Positions 2,820-42,840 of a DNA stretch of 55,101 nucleotides are shown piece by piece. Location: the IMG/VR virus record IMGVR_UViG_3300036770_003769, positions 1 to 55,101 of that record; one strand, written 5' to 3'. This DNA is from a virus. Every line of letters begins with the position of its first letter. Position 1 is the first letter of the stretch. Under the pieces are notes generated by a model. That model saw nothing but the letters and a program-made list of their open reading frames with translations, searched no databases and had not been told where the DNA came from. The translations under genes were made by a program, and so were the position numbers.

Positions 2820-5800
2820 TCACACTGGTGCGGAAATTCTTGAAATATTTAGGGTATTCACAGCGAACACTGGATCGAATAACAAACGCATTTGACCTGA
2901 ATTTATATCTGAGCCAAATGAACCAAGATATGATCCTGTGCTAATTGTTGCATACTCTGTCATATAAGTTGTTGATCCATCATGTAGCAATAGAATTTCT
3001 GTTGCTTGATATGATGATCCACTCTTAATTTGTATTAAGTATTTAACTGTGCGATATTCACTGATTGGTAAAATATCAACAACAGTTTGAGCAACAGCAG
3101 AAGTTGATCCTGTGTTTGCGGAAATTGTTATATTGTTAACTTTATATTCTGTTGCGAGTACAGACAATCTACCGTTTGATTCAATTGATGTGCTGGTTAC
3201 ATTTAACTTTGTTCCATTTTGTAAAACAGAAACATTACCTGTAAATGTGTCCCCAGTACGATTTGCTTTTTCTTGATTTAAAGTGTTTGCTGCAGCAATA
3301 GAAGCAGCAGTATTTGCGTCACTGAATAACAAATCACTTGAAGTGTTAACAATTGGTGATGGTGTGAGAGAAACCCATTGTGCGCTTGATCCATCATCAT
3401 AATAGATGTAGAATCTACCAGTATTTGCTCTCCACCACAATGCGACATTTGAGTTTGCGCTGCCAGGTGGCGTATCAGAAACATATAGTTCTGTATTTGC
3501 GTAAACACCACCACCGCCAAGTTTTGGATTATCAAATGTTAAGATAATCTTATTGTTTGACGGGTCGTCAGTACCTGAAATTGTTATATTTGAAGAATTG
3601 GCGCTAACAAAGTCGATTGTCCTTCTTGTTCCAACTGCAGAACCATCTACTTCAATTGGTGTGGTATTTGCAGTATTTGCAGCATCATATGCAGCGTTTG
3701 CTTGATCGTATGCTGATGATGCTTGAGTATATGCTAAATTTGCATCATCATGTGCCAGATCTGCGTTTGTTAATGCTGTGTTTGCCGCAACATATGCACC
3801 ATTTGCTTGATTATATGCATCTGTAGCAATTATAGTTGCAGCATTTGCTTGATCGTAGGCTAAACCTGCTTGAGCATTACCTTCAGCTAATGAAGCAAAC
3901 GATGTATACGTTGAACCATCATCAGTCCATTCCCACACATCGTCAGTTTCATTCCAACGAAGTGCAACATTTGCATTTGCGCCGCGATTAACTGTAATGA
4001 GAGCGTCAAGAGCAGCTTCACCAGTAACGTTTGAATTGAGAACAATTTCATTGTCCTCAACCAATAATGTTTCCACATTAAGTGCAGTACTGTCGCCGAG
4101 AACAGCAAGATTACCAGATACTACCAAGTCTCCAGTAATTGTGCCACCAGCAATTGGTAATTTTGTATTTGCCGCTTCATATGCTGCATTGGCTTGGTCA
4201 TACGCAGCATTTGCTAATGCTTGAGAGGCAGCAATACTTACATTTGAAACATTAGTAATGCGACCTTTTGAATCAACAGTGATTGTCGCAACATTTATTG
4301 AATCGCCATAAGTTCCTGCTGCTACGCCAGTTGAACCAAGTGTAAATTCTATATTGGCATTACCAGAAGCAGCACCTGCTCCAGCACCAACAGAAACAAT
4401 TACGTCTGCTGTATTTGTAAAGTTAAGTTGCTGTTGACTTAATGTTGAACCGCCGTTTGCGGAAATGCGAACTGTATTTGCTGCAGCGAAAGCAAATGGT
4501 GTTAGAGCACTGAGTACATAACTGTTAAGATCTGTGAATAAAGAAGTAAGATCAAAAATTTCACTGCGCGCTAATTTTGCTTGCGTGTATGCAGTGTTGA
4601 CAGTATTTGCAGTACCTGCAAGAGAAACGCTAGTGTTATTTACATCATCGCTTAATTGCACAACACCAGTTTGTGTTGTATTTGCTTCACGAATAGAAAC
4701 GTTTGCAACAACAACATTACTAGTATTTGAAGTTGTTACTGTGAGTAAACCACCTTCAATCGTTTCAATTTTTAAATTAGCAGCTTCATAAGCAGACAAC
4801 AAACTGCTATAAACATTATATCCTTGCACCAATATCGTATTGGCATTTACAGCGTTTGATTTTAAATTTGCAATAGAAACTTCGCCACCACCAACGACGC
4901 TAATACTTGTGTTACCAAGTTTTAATGTTTCACCAGAAAGATACAAATCTCTGAATGGGAATTCTACAGAACCAAGATCATAAGTTTGGAAAGCAGTTGG
5001 AATGATATTTTGTACAAACAATGTTGCAGCAACATTTAAGTTGCCCGTCATTGTATCGCCAGCTTTTAGTACACGCGTGTTAGCATTATCGTTTGCTGTA
5101 TTTGCTTGCAGATACGCAGAATTTGCTTGATCATAAGCAGCATTGGCTTGATTAAATGCTGCAATAGAATTGACATCGTCGCCTTTGTCGCCCTTTGAGC
5201 CTGTGGCACCTTGCGCACCATCTATACCAGCTGTACCTTGTGCGCCTGTATCGCCTTTGTCACCCTTTGAGCCTTGTGCACCGACATCACCTTGTGTGCC
5301 GTTCGTACCAGCTGCACCCTGTACACCTTGTGGACCTTGTTCGCCAGCAGCACCTTGAATACCTTGTGCGCCCTGCGCGCCATCTATACCAGCAGCACCT
5401 TGAGCGCCGATATCGCCTTTATCGCCTTTTGATCCTGTCGCGCCTTGAGCGCCATCTATACCAGCAGCACCTTGAATACCCTGCGCGCCAGTTGCACCTT
5501 GAACACCTTGAGCACCAGAACCAGTAGCACCTTGAACACCTTGTGCACCAATGGCACCCTGCACACCTTGAGCACCAATACCTGCGAATTCACCAGGAGT
5601 ACCTTGTGCACCCTGAACGCCTTGATAACCTTGTGCGCCTTCAGAACCTTGTGCGCCTTGTACGCCTGGAGAACCTTGTTCACCTGCTGCGCCTTGAACA
5701 CCCTGATGACCTTGTGAACCCTGAACACCCTGAAAGCCTTGAAAGCCTTGTTCACCTTGAGGACCACCAGGTGCGCCTGAAGCACCCTGAACGCCTTGTG

Positions 5801-5891
5801 CGCCTTGCGGACCACTTGCACCAGCAATTGGTGTTCCTGTTCCTAATACAACTGAACCAACAGCGTTTCGATTGGTTAAATTAATCTTCAT
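2820..5891 (-). CDS. Collagen-like tail fibre / virion structural protein
   Basis: A 1023-residue protein. Residues about 24-240 are collagen-like triplets (GAQGVQG, GSKGDKGD). From about 245 there is a run of A-Y-x-Q-A-N heptad-like repeats, which recur near residues 570 and 700-760 and suggest helical trimeric stalk segments alternating with beta-rich globular parts. The C-terminal 150 residues are beta-rich and lack low complexity. This architecture is typical of fibre proteins in marine T4-like phages; the assignment rests on architecture only. The start ATG overlaps the stop of the upstream gene (ATGA), so translation is probably coupled. The host ligand is unknown. Confidence 0.8.
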   Translation of the reverse strand: MKINLTNRNAVGSVVLGTGTPIAGASGPQGAQGVQGASGAPGGPQGEQGFQGFQGVQGSQGHQGVQGAAGEQGSPGVQGAQGSEGAQGYQGVQGAQGTPGEFAGIGAQGVQGAIGAQGVQGATGSGAQGVQGATGAQGIQGAAGIDGAQGATGSKGDKGDIGAQGAAGIDGAQGAQGIQGAAGEQGPQGVQGAAGTNGTQGDVGAQGSKGDKGDTGAQGTAGIDGAQGATGSKGDKGDDVNSIAAFNQANAAYDQANSAYLQANTANDNANTRVLKAGDTMTGNLNVAATLFVQNIIPTAFQTYDLGSVEFPFRDLYLSGETLKLGNTSISVVGGGEVSIANLKSNAVNANTILVQGYNVYSSLLSAYEAANLKIETIEGGLLTVTTSNTSNVVVANVSIREANTTQTGVVQLSDDVNNTSVSLAGTANTVNTAYTQAKLARSEIFDLTSLFTDLNSYVLSALTPFAFAAANTVRISANGGSTLSQQQLNFTNTADVIVSVGAGAGAASGNANIEFTLGSTGVAAGTYGDSINVATITVDSKGRITNVSNVSIAASQALANAAYDQANAAYEAANTKLPIAGGTITGDLVVSGNLAVLGDSTALNVETLLVEDNEIVLNSNVTGEAALDALITVNRGANANVALRWNETDDVWEWTDDGSTYTSFASLAEGNAQAGLAYDQANAATIIATDAYNQANGAYVAANTALTNADLAHDDANLAYTQASSAYDQANAAYDAANTANTTPIEVDGSAVGTRRTIDFVSANSSNITISGTDDPSNNKIILTFDNPKLGGGGVYANTELYVSDTPPGSANSNVALWWRANTGRFYIYYDDGSSAQWVSLTPSPIVNTSSDLLFSDANTAASIAAANTLNQEKANRTGDTFTGNVSVLQNGTKLNVTSTSIESNGRLSVLATEYKVNNITISANTGSTSAVAQTVVDILPISEYRTVKYLIQIKSGSSYQATEILLLHDGSTTYMTEYATISTGSYLGSFGSDINSGQMRLLFDPVFAVNTLNISRISAPV

Positions 5892-6220
5892 CTAGATACC
5901 TGCGGTGTGACAGTTACTATTCCCTCCATTATACGAACAGTCACATTCGCAGTATCCATCATTTTAACATCGTAAACATATCGTCCAGGAGAAATGTTAG
6001 CAGTAACTGCTGAACTCATGGTAATATTTAAATTACCATTTGGACCATTTATAATAGAAATTACTAAATTGGCAGTTGGATTTGTGGAATAATATGATTT
6101 GCGGATTTGACCCGAGAATGAATATCCGCTGACACTCATTGCAGTGCCATCGTCATTCGTTAAATCCATATTTGTATGAAAATCAGTTCCCTGATCTACA
6201 TATAAATCTATATAAGCCAT
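5888..6220 (-). CDS. Small beta-rich phage tail protein
   Basis: 110 residues. The ATG at 6220 is chosen over an upstream TTG because it forms a TGATG overlap with the preceding stop. The protein opens MAYIDLYVDQGTDF and alternates short beta strands, including a PGRYVYDVKM segment. Similar small Ig-like or BppU-N-like proteins sit next to fibre genes in many T4-like marine phages, where they are thought to help attach fibres to the baseplate. No catalytic motif is visible. It is flanked by overlapping genes on both sides, so it belongs to the fibre operon. The function is inferred from context. Confidence 0.65.
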   Translation of the reverse strand: MAYIDLYVDQGTDFHTNMDLTNDDGTAMSVSGYSFSGQIRKSYYSTNPTANLVISIINGPNGNLNITMSSAVTANISPGRYVYDVKMMDTANVTVRIMEGIVTVTPQVSR

Positions 6221-6726
6221 CAATTATCTCGTAAATATTCATACGTTAAGGTTTTTAGTGTGTCAAAATCAGAACAATTCACTATCCTTGTATCTGATGG
6301 CATATTTCTTAATTTTTCTTTTTTGGCAACGACTGCTGCTTTTAGTACAGCGTCGCCAGATTCGTCTGCGCGTTGATATTCAACATCTAATTTTGCAAGT
6401 TCAATATTGCGATGTGTTCGAATATAATTTAAGTGGCACTCAATCGCTTTACTCATATTAATAGTAAAACTAATTGGGGCAGAAACATCATCAAAGTTAC
6501 CTTCCAGCGCTGGCCAATAGGTTACGTTTGCGGTGTTTACTTCTGGAATTTTATCAAATTCTGCTTTTTCAGAAGCATTTTCTAGATCAATCACCTTAAA
6601 TTGAGAACCTGCAGGGATATCTTTAGCAATTGTTGCTTCAAAGGAGAGCTCTCCTGTTGGAATTAAAATTGCAAACGTGCCGCCGCTATTTTTCAGTTCA
6701 TTATTTGTATAAACGGCTACTCTCAT
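6220..6726 (-). CDS. Hypothetical protein of the tail-fibre operon
   Basis: 168 residues. The N-terminal half is beta-rich (MRVAVYTNNELKNSGGTFAILIPTGE), and residues about 100-150 are charged and helical with many Ala and Lys. I recognise no family with confidence. It is the first gene after a 79-nt gap containing a late-promoter-like element and overlaps the next gene by one base. The context suggests a tail accessory or fibre-assembly protein, but no diagnostic motif supports that. A good RBS (AGGAG) lies upstream of the ATG. Confidence 0.6.
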   Translation of the reverse strand: MRVAVYTNNELKNSGGTFAILIPTGELSFEATIAKDIPAGSQFKVIDLENASEKAEFDKIPEVNTANVTYWPALEGNFDDVSAPISFTINMSKAIECHLNYIRTHRNIELAKLDVEYQRADESGDAVLKAAVVAKKEKLRNMPSDTRIVNCSDFDTLKTLTYEYLRDN

Positions 6727-6772
6727 GCTAACGATCTCCTACTTTCGATTTATATGATAACAACGAATAATT

Positions 6773-6782
6773 GTATTTATTA
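6773..6782 (-). promoter_or_regulatory. Candidate T4-type late promoter
   Basis: The minus strand reads TAATAAATAC about 47 nt before the ATG at 6726, in one of the few real gaps in the structural operon. T4 late promoters consist of TATAAATA alone at -10. The same TAATAAATA core occurs before gp25, and the genome encodes the late coactivator gp33. Not experimentally shown. Confidence 0.45.
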
Positions 6783-6805
6783 AACGTTAAAATTATTGAA
6801 TTACA

Positions 6806-8296
6806 CTAATCCTGATCTTGATCTAATTCATCTTCTAGACCTCCACCACCGCCGCCAGGTGGTGGAGGTGGAGGTGGTGGTGGTGGAGGAGGAGGTGGTG
6901 GAGGTGGTGGAGGAGGTGGAGGTGGTGGTGGAGGTGCTCCGCCTCCTGCGATTGGATTACTAATCACAATGACACTACCGTCTGCTGGTATAAAATATTG
7001 TGTGTTATTAATATTTTCACCAGAAACGGCAAATGCAACTTGGAAGGAAGAAGTTGATTTAGAATATGTCTGTAAATGTCCTGTTCCCGAGTAATAAAAT
7101 CCAGTTTCAGAAGAATTAGGTTTTCTGGAACTTCCAATCACACAATAATTTGAATCGGAAAGACTAGTGATGAAATTTAAAGTATATAATTTAATTGTGC
7201 CTTCAGACCAAGATTGATTTGTGATTGAGATACTTGAAATGTTATTGCTTGCGAATATCGTTGGACTAAAGAACCCTACAAATCCGCCACCAAAATTAGC
7301 ATAAGCAACTACAAATTCTGGGTTGAAACCTACGTCGCCATCCGCGCCTACAATTCCCAAATCTCCAGTGTCCCCTTTTATCGGGGCAGGAGCGTTTTCT
7401 CCAGCATTTCCTAAATCACCAGGATCTCCTTTTTCGCCCTTTTCACCCTTCACAGCACCAATTGATTCGCCTTTCTGACCTTTTTCGCCATCATCACCTA
7501 ATTGACCATAACCAAATTCGCCTTTATCGCCTTTTTCGCCTTTTGTGCCACCAATAGATTCTCCAACTTCTCCCTTAAGACCATCAAATCCCTGCTCGCC
7601 CTGAAATCCTTGATTTCCACTCACGCCATCAACACCTTGCGCCCCCTGTGCTCCCTGAACCCCTGGTTGTCCTTTTTGACCCTTTTGTCCCTTTTGTCCA
7701 GTATCACCATCTAATAAAGGAATATCAATTTCTAAATTGACAATTTTTGTGTTAGACGTATTTGCAGTGACAATTACTGATGCAATACTGTTGCCATAAA
7801 AATTTAAACCGCGATCTAAACTTTGAAATTCACCTTCAACAAATAATGGCGTTTTTGATGGATATGCATCACCTTGAATCCAGCATATACCTGCATCATC
7901 AGCGCCAACAGTCAAATTTGTCGTTACAGTATTTTGTCCAATAATTAAAGTGTTAGAAACAATATTTTTTGTTTGAAGAGTATTTGCAACATCAAATATT
8001 ACTTGTGGGTTTGAAAATCTTGCATCATCACCTTCGTAATATGCTTCATCAGTTACAATTTTAGTTTTTGTTGTAAAATTATTTTCGACATTTGCATTGG
8101 CTACTACATCAAGTGTAGTTCCTGTTTGACGGTCAATATAAAGAGCGCCATTTTTAATATTTAAAACTGGACCAGAATCTTTATAATAATTTCCGTTACG
8201 AAGATCATTAGCAGAATTTGCAAGAAAATTAGTAACTTCACGCCAATCACTGAACGTGTTACTTAAAGTCACATGTGAAATATTTGCATTAGCCAT
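6806..8296 (-). CDS. Collagen-like tail fibre with polyproline C-terminus
   Basis: 496 residues. The N-terminal about 190 residues match the next gene upstream (LxNTFxxWRxxTN, LANSANDLRNGxYxKD), so both proteins probably dock to the same virion site. A collagen-like stalk follows (residues about 197-320, charged GEKGDKGE type). The C-terminal domain is again paralogous to the neighbour (SARKPxSSE, SGxGHLQ, VAFAxSGENINNT). Uniquely, this protein then ends in a run of 26 consecutive prolines, several glycines and an acidic tail (DELDQDQD). Likely a virion fibre or receptor-binding protein, by architecture. The start ATG is well supported by alignment with the paralogue. Confidence 0.8.
   Translation of the reverse strand: MANANISHVTLSNTFSDWREVTNFLANSANDLRNGNYYKDSGPVLNIKNGALYIDRQTGTTLDVVANANVENNFTTKTKIVTDEAYYEGDDARFSNPQVIFDVANTLQTKNIVSNTLIIGQNTVTTNLTVGADDAGICWIQGDAYPSKTPLFVEGEFQSLDRGLNFYGNSIASVIVTANTSNTKIVNLEIDIPLLDGDTGQKGQKGQKGQPGVQGAQGAQGVDGVSGNQGFQGEQGFDGLKGEVGESIGGTKGEKGDKGEFGYGQLGDDGEKGQKGESIGAVKGEKGEKGDPGDLGNAGENAPAPIKGDTGDLGIVGADGDVGFNPEFVVAYANFGGGFVGFFSPTIFASNNISSISITNQSWSEGTIKLYTLNFITSLSDSNYCVIGSSRKPNSSETGFYYSGTGHLQTYSKSTSSFQVAFAVSGENINNTQYFIPADGSVIVISNPIAGGGAPPPPPPPPPPPPPPPPPPPPPPPPPPGGGGGGLEDELDQDQD
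6857..6934 (-). repeat. Triplet repeat encoding 26 prolines
   Basis: Seventy-eight bases of AGG/TGG triplets on the plus strand (CCT/CCA on the coding strand) encode 26 uninterrupted prolines, followed by a glycine run. The run would stall ribosomes without EF-P, and as a near-pure trinucleotide repeat it is prone to slippage in length. Confidence 0.9.
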
Positions 8297-8307
8297 TTAA
8301 TTGAATC

Positions 8308-9663
8308 TTATTTAACTACAATCACGTCAGCATCTGTTGGATAATAATATTCTGTATTATTAATATTTTCTCCAGATAATGCAAATGCAACTCTAACATA
8401 ATTAGCATTTCTGCTTGTCAATTGTAAATGCCCACTACCTGAATAAAAATAACTTGATTCTGAGGAGCTTGGTTTTCTTGCAGAACCCGCAACAGCATAA
8501 TATTGATCTGCCATTGGTGTTGTGAAATTTAAAGTATATTGGACTAATGTTGTAAATGACCAAGAACCACCATCCCAACTTGAATTGGTCGCGACTGTGA
8601 TGCTTGATATATTGTTACTACTATTAACTGTAACTGAACCAAAAGAAGAACTAAAATTGGCGTATGCCTTAACCAATTGCGACCCTACAGCTGCTCCATC
8701 ACCCTTATCACCTTTGTCGCCTTGAGGACCTTGATCGCCCTTTTCACCTTTGTCTGATGATGTACCAGCAGTACCTTGAGGACCTTGATCTCCCTTATCG
8801 CCTTTATCGCCAACGTCACCACTTCCACCAATTTCACCTTTCTGACCTTTCGTACCTTGAAATCCCTTATCACCCTCACCTTGTTCACCTTTATCCCCTT
8901 TGACGCCCTCACCACCAATCGCAGATTCACCCTTTGAACCTTGAACGCCTTGCACGCCTTGAACGCCTTGGAAACCTTGTGCACCCTGTACGCCTTGGAA
9001 GCCTTGCGCACCTTGTGCTCCTGGTTCGCCCTTTTCACCATCAACACCAGGTTCACCTTTAACGCCTGGTGCGCCTGCAGTACTTGGTGCATCGATAATG
9101 ATGTCAGTAATTTTTGTATTTGCAACGTTGGCTGATACTGTAACAGTTGCAATACCATTACCACGGAAATTCAAGCCGCGACGTGTTGCAATAAACGAGC
9201 CATCTTGATAAATTGGTGTTCTTGATGGTGCTGGATCGCCATTAATAATACATTCACCATTTGAATAGTCAGAACCGACTGTCAAATCCGTTGTGATTGT
9301 ATTTTGACCAGTTATTAAAGTATTTGAAACTAGATTTTTAGTGAAGATTGTATTCGATACTTGAACATAGGCAGAAGTATTAGTAAATCTTGCATTTGCG
9401 CCATCTACAGTAATATCATCGGTTGATACAAAAGTTTTGACAGTCAATTGATTTGCAACAGAAGCATCAGAAGAAACAAGTAAAGTAGTTCCTGTTGGTT
9501 TTGTTATTGTGACATTACCAGAGGCAATAATTAAATCACCATTATCTTTGACATATGCACCATTGCGTAAGTCATTGGCAGAATTCGCCAACACATTAGT
9601 GATGACGCGCCATTCATTAAACGTATTGTTTAATTGTAATTGTGCAATATTCGCATTAGCCAT
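8308..9663 (-). CDS. Collagen-like tail fibre protein, paralogue of the next gene
   Basis: 451 residues. The N-terminal domain (MANANIAQLQLNNTFNEWR, LANSANDLRNG) and the C-terminal beta domain (YTLNFTTPMADQYY, SGSGHLQ, VAFALSGENINNTEYYYP) are paralogous to the downstream fibre. The central collagen stalk (residues about 195-320) is longer in GXQ units. It lacks the polyproline tail and ends ADVIVVK. The pair looks like a duplication followed by divergence of stalk and tip, consistent with two fibres of related specificity. The start overlaps the end of the upstream small coiled-coil gene by 8 nt. Confidence 0.8.
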   Translation of the reverse strand: MANANIAQLQLNNTFNEWRVITNVLANSANDLRNGAYVKDNGDLIIASGNVTITKPTGTTLLVSSDASVANQLTVKTFVSTDDITVDGANARFTNTSAYVQVSNTIFTKNLVSNTLITGQNTITTDLTVGSDYSNGECIINGDPAPSRTPIYQDGSFIATRRGLNFRGNGIATVTVSANVANTKITDIIIDAPSTAGAPGVKGEPGVDGEKGEPGAQGAQGFQGVQGAQGFQGVQGVQGVQGSKGESAIGGEGVKGDKGEQGEGDKGFQGTKGQKGEIGGSGDVGDKGDKGDQGPQGTAGTSSDKGEKGDQGPQGDKGDKGDGAAVGSQLVKAYANFSSSFGSVTVNSSNNISSITVATNSSWDGGSWSFTTLVQYTLNFTTPMADQYYAVAGSARKPSSSESSYFYSGSGHLQLTSRNANYVRVAFALSGENINNTEYYYPTDADVIVVK

Positions 9664-36155: not shown

Positions 36156-36373
36156 ATTGGCAATCTAGATGACCTTTGTATGAAACGTAACGTCTGTGCT
36201 TCAACTTCAATTTTAGATTTTAGGTTTTCGTTGACGAGACTGGCAGCAACTTCAACCTCAAGACCACTTTCTTCGCAATAATGAGTTATAGCGTCAATTA
36301 GACTTAAATTCATCTTACTAGCCATTTCTTCAATCATTAAACAAAAATTATTTTTTTCTTCGCGAGTTGCCAT
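36152..36373 (-). CDS. 33: Late transcription coactivator gp33-like
   Basis: 73 residues, shorter than T4 gp33 (112) but similar to cyanophage gp33 in layout: MIEEMASKMNLSLIDAITHYCEESGLE, then VAASLVNENLKSKIEVEA and a C-terminal SRLPI. The C-terminus of gp33 in T4 binds the sliding clamp and its core bridges to RNA polymerase at late promoters. The neighbour gp59, with a 4-nt overlap, supports the call. Its presence agrees with TATAAATA-like elements before late genes in this window. Confidence 0.75.
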   Translation of the reverse strand: MATREEKNNFCLMIEEMASKMNLSLIDAITHYCEESGLEVEVAASLVNENLKSKIEVEAQTLRFIQRSSRLPI

Positions 36374-37416
36374 CAGCTTGGTCCAAATACTTCGTTAATT
36401 ACGCGATTGACTTTGATGAATTTACCTTTATGGTAGAGTTGATACAGATCCTCAGCACCAACATAAGTGCATGCAGAACGAATACCACCCAAAAGATGTT
36501 TCACAGTGTTTGACACTTTACCGCGATACGGTATATAGACCTCTTTTCCTTCACTGGCTCGATAGTCAGCAACACCACCATTGTGAAGTTCTTGTGCAGC
36601 CTTCGAAGCCATACCATAGAATGGTATCCTGCTTGCGTCTTTGATATTATCTCTGAATCCTGGCGGCAAGCCTTCTTCATGCGCTGCAAACATACCACCA
36701 ATCATAACAAAGTGCGCACCTGCAGCGAATGCTTTGGCTACATCTCCAGGGCAGGTACAACCACCATCAGACATAATACGACCACGCGCTGATTCTGCTG
36801 CATCATAACATTCAAGAACCGCAGAGAGTTGTGGGTAACCAACGCCAGTCATCTTACGAGTCGTGCAAACTGATCCAGGACCGATGCCAATCTTAACGAT
36901 ATCCGCACCGACTTCAATGAGAGACTCAACTGCTTCTGGTGTTACGACATTGCCTGCAATTAAACCATACTCTGGATAGTTCTCTGCAAACTCGCCAACA
37001 AAATCTAAAAATCTAGAAGTATAACCATTAGCAACATCAATACAAACTGCGCGTGGAATGGGTATATCATTGTCGATACAGTGGGCGTGGAAATTTGTAA
37101 ACTTGTCTAGATCAGTGTTATTAGCGCCAAGAGAATAAATTGCATAATGTGCAACGTCACGCTCTGTATCGTAAAAGTCAATTAGCGCATTTAGAGGATA
37201 ATGTTTATTTAATGCAGTAAGGATATTATCGCGACTCAATGCTGTAGCCATCTCGAAAGTACCAACACCGTCCATGTTTGCTGCAACGATTGGAACTACA
37301 TCTAGGTCGAAAAAATCAACTTCAAGATCAACCAATTGACGCGAATGTAGATCTGAGTGTTTTGGCACTAGAAGTACATCAGCAAAATCTAATTTCGTTT
37401 CAACATCTATCTTCAT
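36373..37416 (-). CDS. guaC: GMP reductase
   Basis: 347 residues, the usual length for bacterial GuaC. The active-site loop is clear: [20 protein letters not shown] with catalytic C184, then [19 protein letters not shown] and [11 protein letters not shown]. The loop [22 protein letters not shown] distinguishes GMP reductase from IMP dehydrogenase, which also has a CBS insert that is absent here. It converts GMP to IMP with NADPH, feeding adenine nucleotide synthesis. The start has an AAGGTG RBS. It overlaps gp33 (TGATG) and lies in the replication operon. A phage copy could rebalance the purine pool during replication; that is inference. Confidence 0.9.
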
Positions 37417-41121: not shown

Positions 41122-41146
41122 AAAAAGGTGGCGGCGAACCGCCACC
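41122..41146 (-). terminator. Rho-independent terminator after tmRNA
   Basis: On the minus strand an 8-bp GGTGGCGG/CCGCCACC stem with a TTCG loop is followed by TTTTTA. It closes the tmRNA transcript directly after its 3' pseudoknot-like region. Confidence 0.92.
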
Positions 41147-41446
41147 TCTCTGACTCATTCTGTTACCAAGTGAGTCAACTCTGTTACTCTTATACCGCAA
41201 TTAAGCAGCAAGAGGCATGTCGTAAACATCATCGTTTGCGTTTACTTGTTTTGCGCTGATTAAGTCAGTCGCCTCACTGGTTGCTGTCAGGTTATTACTT
41301 GCCCTGTCGAAGCCAAATTCATCCCCGTCGGATAGCCATCACGTACATTTCTGCAGAGGTGATGGGCGTCTGATATTTGGTGGAGATGTCGGGGGTCGAA
41401 CCCGAGTCCAGAACACCTTTAATTGTCAGTTTACAACCATTATTCT
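41147..41446 (-). ncRNA. ssrA: Circularly permuted (two-piece) tmRNA
   Basis: On the minus strand, the acceptor piece comes first: a T-arm TCGGG-TTCGACC-CCCGA, then CATCTCC and encoded ACCA ending at 41378. An intervening segment (41327-41377) holds a CCATCAC/GTGATGG hairpin. The coding piece then starts at 41326 with GGGGATG, which pairs with CATCTCC to rebuild a 7-bp acceptor stem, followed by the diagnostic AATTTGGCTTCGAC of tmRNA 5' ends and the tag frame at 41239-41201. The last part includes a TGACTCA/TGAGTCA stem and a terminator. Permuted ssrA genes are known in alphaproteobacteria, some betaproteobacteria and cyanobacteria; the RNA rescues stalled ribosomes. The 5' boundary (about 41446) is estimated. 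It lies 3' of ahpD and may share its transcript. Confidence 0.93.
41201..41239 (-). other. tmRNA tag reading frame ANDDVYDMPLAA-stop
   Basis: The frame GCA...TAA encodes ANDDVYDMPLAA. It starts with the conserved A-N-D and ends with a hydrophobic LAA degron, as in known tags. The preceding AAGTAAAC is where the resume region usually lies. The middle (DVYDMP) is unlike the common ALAA-type proteobacterial tags. Confidence 0.88.
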
Positions 41447-41449
41447 TAT

Positions 41450-41962
41450 TTAGCCAGCAAGAACCTTCGCTACTGAATTCACAACAGCAGCAATGCGACC
41501 GATATCTCGAAGTTGCTCAACTGTAAGACCTTCTTTCTTGAGAGTGTCATAATGAGCCTTGACGCAGAAGTGGCATTTGCCTACGATTGAGGCTGCTAGA
41601 GAATATGCTTCGAAGTTGACCTTTGAAGTGCCACCGTGATTCATGATAGCATTCATACGAAGTTGTGCAGGCAATCCTTTGAGTGCAGGATCGTCAGCCA
41701 TTTCAACGTATGGATACCAAACATTATTTTGAGCCATAATTGCAGCAGCAGTCAACGCGGCGTCGGCTTCCTTACGGTCCTCAAACTCTGCGTCGATTGC
41801 TGTTGCTAATCGAGAATTACCTGCAGCAAATGCCGCTGCAAGTGCGCATCCTTGCGCAACCAATGGGTCAAGGGAACTTCGAAGCAGTACTGCATCAAGA
41901 TTCAACTTTGTATCTTTTGCGTAATCTGGTAGACCTTCTTTAACTACATTGACCCAATTCAT
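41450..41962 (-). CDS. ahpD: AhpD-like alkylhydroperoxidase
   Basis: 170 residues (mycobacterial AhpD 177). The CxxC active site is C130-HF-C133 in KCHFCVKAHYDTL, and the preceding MNAIMNHGGTSKVNFEAYSLA matches the AhpD helix with the proton-relay residues. AhpD has a weak peroxidase activity and can recycle AhpC through its dithiol with lipoyl cofactors. The gene starts 1 nt after the EF-hand gene with an AGGAAGT RBS, in the same operon as ahpC. Just downstream lies the tmRNA. Such a pair in a T4-like phage is rare to my knowledge. Confidence 0.88.
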   Translation of the reverse strand: MNWVNVVKEGLPDYAKDTKLNLDAVLLRSSLDPLVAQGCALAAAFAAGNSRLATAIDAEFEDRKEADAALTAAAIMAQNNVWYPYVEMADDPALKGLPAQLRMNAIMNHGGTSKVNFEAYSLAASIVGKCHFCVKAHYDTLKKEGLTVEQLRDIGRIAAVVNSVAKVLAG

Positions 41963-41963
41963 T

Positions 41964-42212
41964 TTATACTTCCTTTGGTGTTTCTGTGCAGCGTGAGAAC
42001 AAATAGGCTTTTGCTGTGCGCATTTCTACGTTGCTCAAAAAACCATCTCCGTTCTTGTCTGCTCTTTCAAACAATGCACTTGATACAGTGCAATAACGAT
42101 TCAAATCTTCAAAAGAAACTTTGCCATCCTTGTCAAAGTCATACTGCGTCACGCGGTCTTGAGCCATCGCTGGCGCAGATAACATAATCAATCCAATGAT
42201 TAATTTCTTCAT
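41964..42212 (-). CDS. Secreted EF-hand protein
   Basis: 82 residues with a signal peptide (MKKLIIGLIMLSAPAMAQ, cleavage after AMA). Two EF-hand loops follow: D-F-D-K-D-G-K-V-S-F-E-D and D-K-N-G-D-G-F-L-S-N-V-E, both with the required acidic positions 1, 3, 5 and 12 and glycine at 6. It is therefore a small periplasmic calcium-binding protein. It sits between ahpC and ahpD and is probably co-transcribed. Its role is unknown; it may have come with the cassette from a bacterium. Confidence 0.75.
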   Translation of the reverse strand: MKKLIIGLIMLSAPAMAQDRVTQYDFDKDGKVSFEDLNRYCTVSSALFERADKNGDGFLSNVEMRTAKAYLFSRCTETPKEV

Positions 42213-42224
42213 TTAAGTTTTCCT

Positions 42225-42797
42225 TTATTTTGATAGAGTCGCCTCACCAATAGCACGATTGCACTGGCAAAGTTCACCCGTCTGCAAAGCATCGAGGATA
42301 CGAAGTGTTTCCTCTGGATTGCGTCCGACGTTTAGATTATTCACTGTGACATGCTGAATAACATTTTCTGGGTCAACAATAAATGTTGCTCGAAGAGCAG
42401 CACCTGCTGGCTTGAAGAATACCCCAAGATGATCAACGAGGCTGTCGCTCTCATTGTAATAGGCATCGCTGCTCCGAGCAGTATCAGCAAAGAACCAGCA
42501 AGTGGTTTTCTTGAGATCTTCATGAGCATTCTTCCATGCCAACTTACAGAACTCGTTATCTGTTGAACCGATCAAAAGAACCGCATCGCGGTCAGCAAAA
42601 TCTTTGTTCAACTTGTCATAAGCAACGATTTCCGTTGGGCAAACAAACGTGAAATCTTTTGGATAGAACACAATAACTTTCCACTTGCCTGCAAATGATG
42701 CTTCTGTAATTTCTTCGAAAGCATTTTCAGGCGTAAGAGCACCAGGCTTCACACCAGTGATACGAAATTCTTCTAACTTTTCTCCAACTGTCTTCAT
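42225..42797 (-). CDS. ahpC: Typical 2-Cys peroxiredoxin AhpC
   Basis: 190 residues from the ATG at 42797, which has an AGGAG RBS 7 nt upstream; a start at 42818 is less likely. Peroxidatic cysteine is C53 in FTFVCPTE; a resolving cysteine is C177 or C179 in GELCQCN. The KDFTFVCPTEIVAYD and ADRDAVLLIGSTDNEFCKLAW stretches are typical of AhpC/Prx1. It reduces hydrogen peroxide and organic peroxides in the cytoplasm; reduction probably comes from the AhpD encoded downstream (AhpF is not in the window). A 27-nt leader follows a weak terminator-like hairpin. Confidence 0.93.
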   Translation of the reverse strand: MKTVGEKLEEFRITGVKPGALTPENAFEEITEASFAGKWKVIVFYPKDFTFVCPTEIVAYDKLNKDFADRDAVLLIGSTDNEFCKLAWKNAHEDLKKTTCWFFADTARSSDAYYNESDSLVDHLGVFFKPAGAALRATFIVDPENVIQHVTVNNLNVGRNPEETLRILDALQTGELCQCNRAIGEATLSK

Positions 42798-42840
42798 GTT
42801 AAACTCCTGTATAATCAAAACCTATACACAACGTATATAT

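Follow-up and report, generated by a model that had tools for sequence, protein, structure and literature searches.

Why would a T4-like virus carry a tmRNA gene in two permuted pieces, and what is the hairpin that lies between them? We addressed this question in the IMG/VR record IMGVR_UViG_3300036770_003769, analyzed at its full length of 55,101 bases (here called the window), which may be a fragment. The window is from a T4-like virus (gp32, gp59, baseplate wedge, tube cap, PhoH, and PF12322). A first-pass annotation had read a complete permuted tmRNA from the letters of this T4-like phage, and the reading was borne out. ARAGORN called a permuted tmRNA as the sole RNA gene of the window (41470 to 41110, minus strand; tag ANDDVYDMPLAA), and the locus matched the full models of both tmRNA_permuted (RF04321; 41123 to 41474, minus strand; 139 bits; E = 2.8e-27; Rfam gathering threshold 47) and beta_tmRNA (RF01850; 132.8 bits; E = 2.4e-40; gathering threshold 84), each above its threshold. 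We conclude that positions 41123 to 41474 of the minus strand are a complete circularly permuted tmRNA of the beta type. The gene and its conserved neighbors are laid out as follows, in the direction of transcription:

42225 to 42818, minus strand: AhpC/TSA peroxiredoxin gene (Pfam PF00578), a conserved neighbor of the tmRNA
41450 to 41962, minus strand: AhpD-like (CMD family) gene (Pfam PF02627), upstream of the tmRNA, a conserved neighbor with 67 to 97% identity among relatives
41378 to 41444, minus strand: acceptor (3' tRNA-like) piece of the tmRNA, first in the gene, with P2 strand, T arm, CATCTCC, and ACCA
41327 to 41377, minus strand: spacer of 51 nt that separates the two tmRNA pieces; most relatives have one of 44 nt
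41201 to 41326, minus strand: coding piece of the tmRNA, with the acceptor 5' strand GGGGATG, the TTCGAC D-loop region, and the resume/tag region
41201 to 41239, minus strand: tag frame ANDDVYDMPLAA-stop, GCA...TAA (ARAGORN)
41122 to 41146, minus strand: intrinsic terminator GGTGGCGG-TTCG-CCGCCACC-TTTTT, which ends the tmRNA transcript and aligns to the 3' hairpin of RF01850

In the acceptor piece, the T arm (CGGGTTCGACCCCCG) is followed by the acceptor 3' strand CATCTCC and then by ACCA at 41381 to 41378. The 7-bp acceptor stem that had been rebuilt from the two ends holds: GGGGATG and CATCTCC form seven pairs that include G3-U70, the alanyl-tRNA synthetase signature of tmRNA. The tmRNA ends proposed earlier, 41326 and 41378, agree with the GGGGATG start and the ACCA end as read from the sequence, and the outer coordinate given for the locus, 41446, lies close to the acceptor piece's 5' boundary, which is conserved: TAATGGT is kept there in relatives, and the 20 nt upstream of the gene are only 37% identical. 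The tag retains the AND...LAA form, and a degron-like tag is also kept in related phages (ANDDVYNMALAA, ANDDYYEMALAA, and ANDDSFTPMALAA). No SmpB was found among 26 phage records; the window tmRNA must therefore rely on host SmpB. A role of the tmRNA in taking over ribosome rescue or in tagging proteins remains plausible. A bacterial donor of the gene was sought in Polynucleobacter and Rugamonas, neither of which gave a real match, and a TAAATA late-promoter motif upstream of the tmRNA was set aside, as this motif is frequent throughout the window and has no clear association with genes.

The first-pass annotation had also regarded a permuted tmRNA as unusual for a phage, and this part of its reading did not stand. 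Buchholz et al. (2022) counted 402 phages with tmRNA, with a two-piece form in 53 of the distinct structures, and two-piece tmRNAs had already been described in marine phages (PMC9004378). In IMG/VR, the pattern CATCTCCACCA-spacer-GGGGATG occurred in >100 stretches among the matches listed, some of which were not true tmRNAs, and dozens of the pattern-matched loci were called permuted tmRNAs by ARAGORN. We therefore rejected the phage tmRNA itself as a novelty. Close relatives of the window gene were found on ∼25 contigs, most of which share the order AhpC, EF-hand protein, AhpD, and tmRNA. Cultured Stenotrophomonas phages (Menderavirus) carry a permuted tmRNA that is weakly beta-type; in phage Marzo (L240, 3934 to 4306) it has the tag VAANDDSYTVRIAA and is flanked by tRNA genes. 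The Stenotrophomonas hosts of these phages use a one-piece tmRNA.

Several other features of the window were recorded. The AhpC peroxiredoxin, EF-hand, and AhpD/CMD-like proteins are encoded together upstream of the tmRNA, in a module (41450 to 42818, minus strand) that is kept across ∼20 related phage contigs and is likely a phage-borne set detoxifying peroxide. An IMP dehydrogenase/GMP reductase-like protein (36373 to 37416, minus strand) is likewise kept among relatives, and three large proteins with collagen-like repeats (2820 to 9663, minus strand) are probably tail fibers.

What, then, occupies the spacer? The intervening hairpin reported earlier is present; what had been overlooked is that it is a conserved RNA in its own right, with a link to AbiD/AbiF toxin genes in bacterial genomes. 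It is located as follows:

41329 to 41370, minus strand: Abi_2-linked RNA hairpin motif GACGCCCATCACCTCTGCAGAAATGTACGTGATGGCTATCCG, identified by covariation, by bacterial copies beside Abi_2, and by a score of 54.7 bits with the refined model R2 (below), a score that is not independent since the window was included in that model

The hairpin consists of a covarying 7-bp stem, a CUC/C internal loop, a 4-bp inner stem (UGCA/UGUA), and a GAAA tetraloop, and the window copy shows the defining features of the family, an invariant CCUCU.CA..UGUACG-type loop and a 7-bp stem that covaries. Among relatives of the tmRNA, which were gathered without regard to the spacer, the stem arms were invariant and the 18-nt loop was 96% identical, compared to 77% for the tag codons and 58% for the region after the tag. 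Spacers of unrelated phage tmRNAs were mostly AT-rich and had no sequence in common with that of the window. Across phage copies, 99% of stem cells were paired, and 31 cells were changed on both sides, compared to 7.0 ± 2.2 in shuffles; both sides were changed at four of the seven outer-stem pairs, and sliding the register of the stem abolished the signal. With bacterial copies added, there were 32 double-changed cells versus 8.8.

The same hairpin recurs outside this tmRNA. The motif was found in IMG/VR on 57 contigs by one loop pattern and on 65 by another. In tmRNA spacers, phage tRNA arrays, and stand-alone phage sites alike, the loop (CCUCUGCAGNAAUGUACG) was retained and its stem covaries, although the loop, and not the stem, was part of the search pattern, which partly accounts for the loop being invariant across contexts. 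Eight copies lie between tRNA-Ala and its neighbor in the tRNA array, which is tRNA-Gln in most cases (L248, L250, L264, L283, L293, L295, L297, and L299), two immediately before tRNA-Thr (L294 and L301), and two between a tmRNA and tRNA-Thr (L249 and L284). One is within a different tmRNA with the tag ANDEQFALAA (L296), and others stand alone (L298, L300, L302, the L332 group, L334, and L341). In the tRNA and tmRNA cases that were read, the hairpin shares the strand of the tRNAs. In four of the tRNA arrays (L264, L283, L293, and L297), further conserved non-tRNA segments adjoin the hairpin (for example, GTGGCTAGTCTGACC...). Searches of INPHARED phages and of plasmids by blastn returned short chance matches only; a Microviridae match (H50; 11 bits) was dropped, and stemless matches of the L328 type (20 bits) were taken as chance.

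Bacterial copies connect this hairpin to a toxin family. Phage copies alone were used to build a covariance model (R1), which was searched against 369 genomes from the class that contains a Polynucleobacter genome, and a refined model built from the phage and first bacterial copies (R2) was searched against 398 genomes of the phylum and later against one order; E-values from both models are rough. R1 gave seven bacterial matches, the five strongest of which included three at an Abi_2 gene or its C-terminal part (L303, L304, and L306) and one at a remnant (L305). Within the 398 genomes, R2 found three copies at intact Abi_2 genes (L312, L313, and L314), one at a remnant (L311), and one alone (L310). 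The one-order search added L345, in which the inner stem carries a double change (UGCG...CGUA in place of UGCA...UGUA). An intact Abi_2 gene (501 to 1544) follows this copy directly, and a phage portal-like gene lies near, such that the locus is probably a prophage. The R1/R2 matches L308 and L309 (∼21 to 24 bits), away from Abi_2, were taken as chance. In total, six of the confident bacterial copies are beside intact Abi_2 (L303, L306, L312, L313, L314, and L345), three are at Abi_2 remnants (L304, L305, and L311), and two are orphans (L307 and L310), making 11 copies, a small number of independent loci. Since Abi_2 occurred in only 11 of 143 genomes, chance adjacency is estimated at ∼1e-4 per match, and by this estimate the association of hairpin and Abi_2 exceeds chance by far.

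The toxins that adjoin the hairpin matched Pfam PF07751 (188 to 193 bits) and PADLOC AbiD (200 to 227 bits), and the nearest solved structure is an Abi family protein (PDB 8vz6; E = 9e-30). The five intact hairpin-linked toxins placed in a tree retain the HEPN motif RNxxxH and share a 99/99 branch with one other row, in a tree that left out several sampled proteins and is otherwise weak. In this small tree the R2-linked toxins cluster, with 11 of 500 shuffles scoring as low. The hairpin does not always lie upstream of the toxin gene; at several of the bacterial loci the two converge. Close upstream of the hairpin, 5 of the first 10 bacterial loci have a sigma-70-like promoter with at least 10 of 12 matches, compared to ∼3% of shuffles. 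Taken together, that the window hairpin belongs to an RNA family linked to Abi_2 (AbiD/AbiF) is well supported.

We then compared this family with the RNA already associated with Abi_2. The window spacer gave no match to the Rfam abiF model (RF03085) and was rejected as a member of that family. Rfam abiF RNA was found at 4 of 12 other Abi_2 loci, and most of 13 sampled Abi_2 loci had neither type of hairpin at a confident score. A more distant relative of the window tmRNA, homologous to it and located on a record of 161,237 bases (L086), has, in the corresponding spacer, a genuine abiF motif (7339 to 7374; 41.5 bits; threshold 37), the only such case in the IMG/VR pattern scan. In Clostridioides difficile, AbiF is toxic and is neutralized in cis and in trans by the abiF-hairpin RNA through direct binding; changes that break the stem abolish neutralization, and compensatory changes do not (PMC12373285). 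By analogy with abiF RNA, the bacterial hairpin would be the antitoxin of the adjacent AbiD toxin.

No Abi_2 gene was found in the motif-bearing phage records searched, in sets of 13 and 23 (4 shared) that include records of 108 to 173 kb and many fragments. Given a hairpin with no Abi_2 in these records, an RNA decoy or antidote is the simplest account. We consider it probable, by analogy with known antitoxin RNAs, that the locus yields a permuted tmRNA together with a spacer hairpin that mimics an AbiD/AbiF antitoxin and thereby blocks abortive infection. One transcript would give two products, an apparently functional beta-type tmRNA, made up of two processed pieces and needing host SmpB, and an excised hairpin of ∼45 nt imitating the noncoding RNA partner of one clade of AbiD/AbiF toxins (Abi_2, HEPN ribonucleases). 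Given how two-piece tmRNAs are known to mature, host tRNA-processing enzymes would be expected to free the hairpin, with RNase P acting at the coding piece and 3'-end trimming at CCA. The freed hairpin may then take the place of the cellular antitoxin RNA on the HEPN toxin dimer, keeping the toxin inactive, such that the infected cell would not abort; toxin binding, protection, and a benefit to the phage are all inferred here.

Other explanations for the conserved spacer were weighed against this one. The tmRNA itself could be what is adaptive, through ribosome rescue or tagging for host proteases, the hairpin being secondary or directed at another target such as host RNA. The completeness of the tmRNA and a degron-like tag that relatives retain are consistent with this, as is the wide occurrence of phage tmRNAs (PMC9004378); nevertheless, hairpins without a tmRNA and the link to Abi_2 would be left unexplained, and we regard this account as unlikely. 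The functions of the tmRNA and of the hairpin are, in any case, mutually compatible. That the hairpin merely aids maturation, by holding the pieces together or as a cleavage signal, with its conservation reflecting that role, appears very improbable. Other permuted tmRNA spacers do form hairpins (AT-rich, 26 to 35 nt); however, these lack any likeness in sequence to that of the window, and the motif also occurs in tRNA arrays, at stand-alone sites, and beside bacterial Abi_2. Nor would such a role account for invariant arms and a 96% identical loop where the tag region is at 77% and the post-tag region at 58%.

A further alternative is that the hairpin is the antitoxin of an AbiD/AbiF system of the phage's own, directed against rival phages; the toxin gene would then lie elsewhere or have been lost recently. 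Abi_2 systems are found in prophages (PMC12373285), the L345 copy is near a portal-like gene, and the two bacterial orphans and three toxin-remnant loci indicate that the RNA can outlive its toxin. Against this, no Abi_2 was found in the motif-bearing phage records searched, even those of 108 to 173 kb, and a relic would not be expected to have been placed repeatedly and independently in tRNA-type transcripts with its structure intact. We consider it quite unlikely that the phage maintains the hairpin for a toxin of its own. The reading that we prefer remains that of an RNA decoy against a host toxin.

We also lean, with less assurance than for the window itself, toward a broader interpretation, in which several phage lineages hide RNA decoys against AbiD/AbiF, HEPN toxins ancestral to Cas13, in tRNA-type transcripts, and the tmRNA spacer acts as a slot for exchangeable cargo. 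One type of decoy would fill the slot in the window family and a genuine abiF motif in L086, gaps in tRNA arrays would serve likewise, and the RNA processing that matures phage tmRNA and tRNAs would also deliver the antidefense RNA. If the decoy reading is correct, AbiD/AbiF abortive infection has an RNA inhibitor, of which we found no earlier report, and a segment of permuted tmRNA previously regarded as waste gains a purpose. Why phages carry tmRNAs and tRNA arrays would then become directly testable, and the hairpin family would flag phages likely to overcome Abi_2 toxins. The new RNA family and its covariance model mark Abi_2 toxin loci missed by Rfam abiF.

The locus can be placed among known systems. 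It resembles the permuted tmRNAs of RF04321 and RF01850 in its acceptor-spacer-coding order, full-length matches, G3-U70 pair, tag frame, and terminator, and differs from them in being phage-borne and in having a defense-linked RNA hairpin in place of the usual spacer. With the OM43 phage Melnitz and other marine phages (PMC9004378) it shares a phage-encoded two-piece tmRNA in a T4-like myovirus. The tmRNA of Melnitz, however, is of the alphaproteobacterial kind and is linked to a glutamine riboswitch; that of the window is beta-type with a hairpin. Like abiF RNA (RF03085) and RCd22, the window RNA is a short hairpin with a CCUCU...AUG loop and an association with Abi_2 (PMC12373285). It differs from abiF RNA in its inner stem and loop, in its link to a different cluster of Abi_2 proteins, and in that no toxin gene was found beside the phage copies; RCd22, the best-studied AbiF RNA, has two motifs, and the phage hairpin has one. 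A precedent in function would be phage phiTE, which escapes ToxIN via RNA antitoxin mimics (PMC3475682). Its pseudo-ToxI consists of type III ToxIN tandem repeats, is experimentally proven (PMC3475682), and lies within neither tmRNA spacers nor tRNA arrays. The phage hairpins described here have a proposed role of the AbiD/AbiF type, read from sequence. In both cases, a phage RNA resembles a host antitoxin RNA, a putative one in the case of the hairpin, and that of phiTE defeats abortive infection (PMC3475682).
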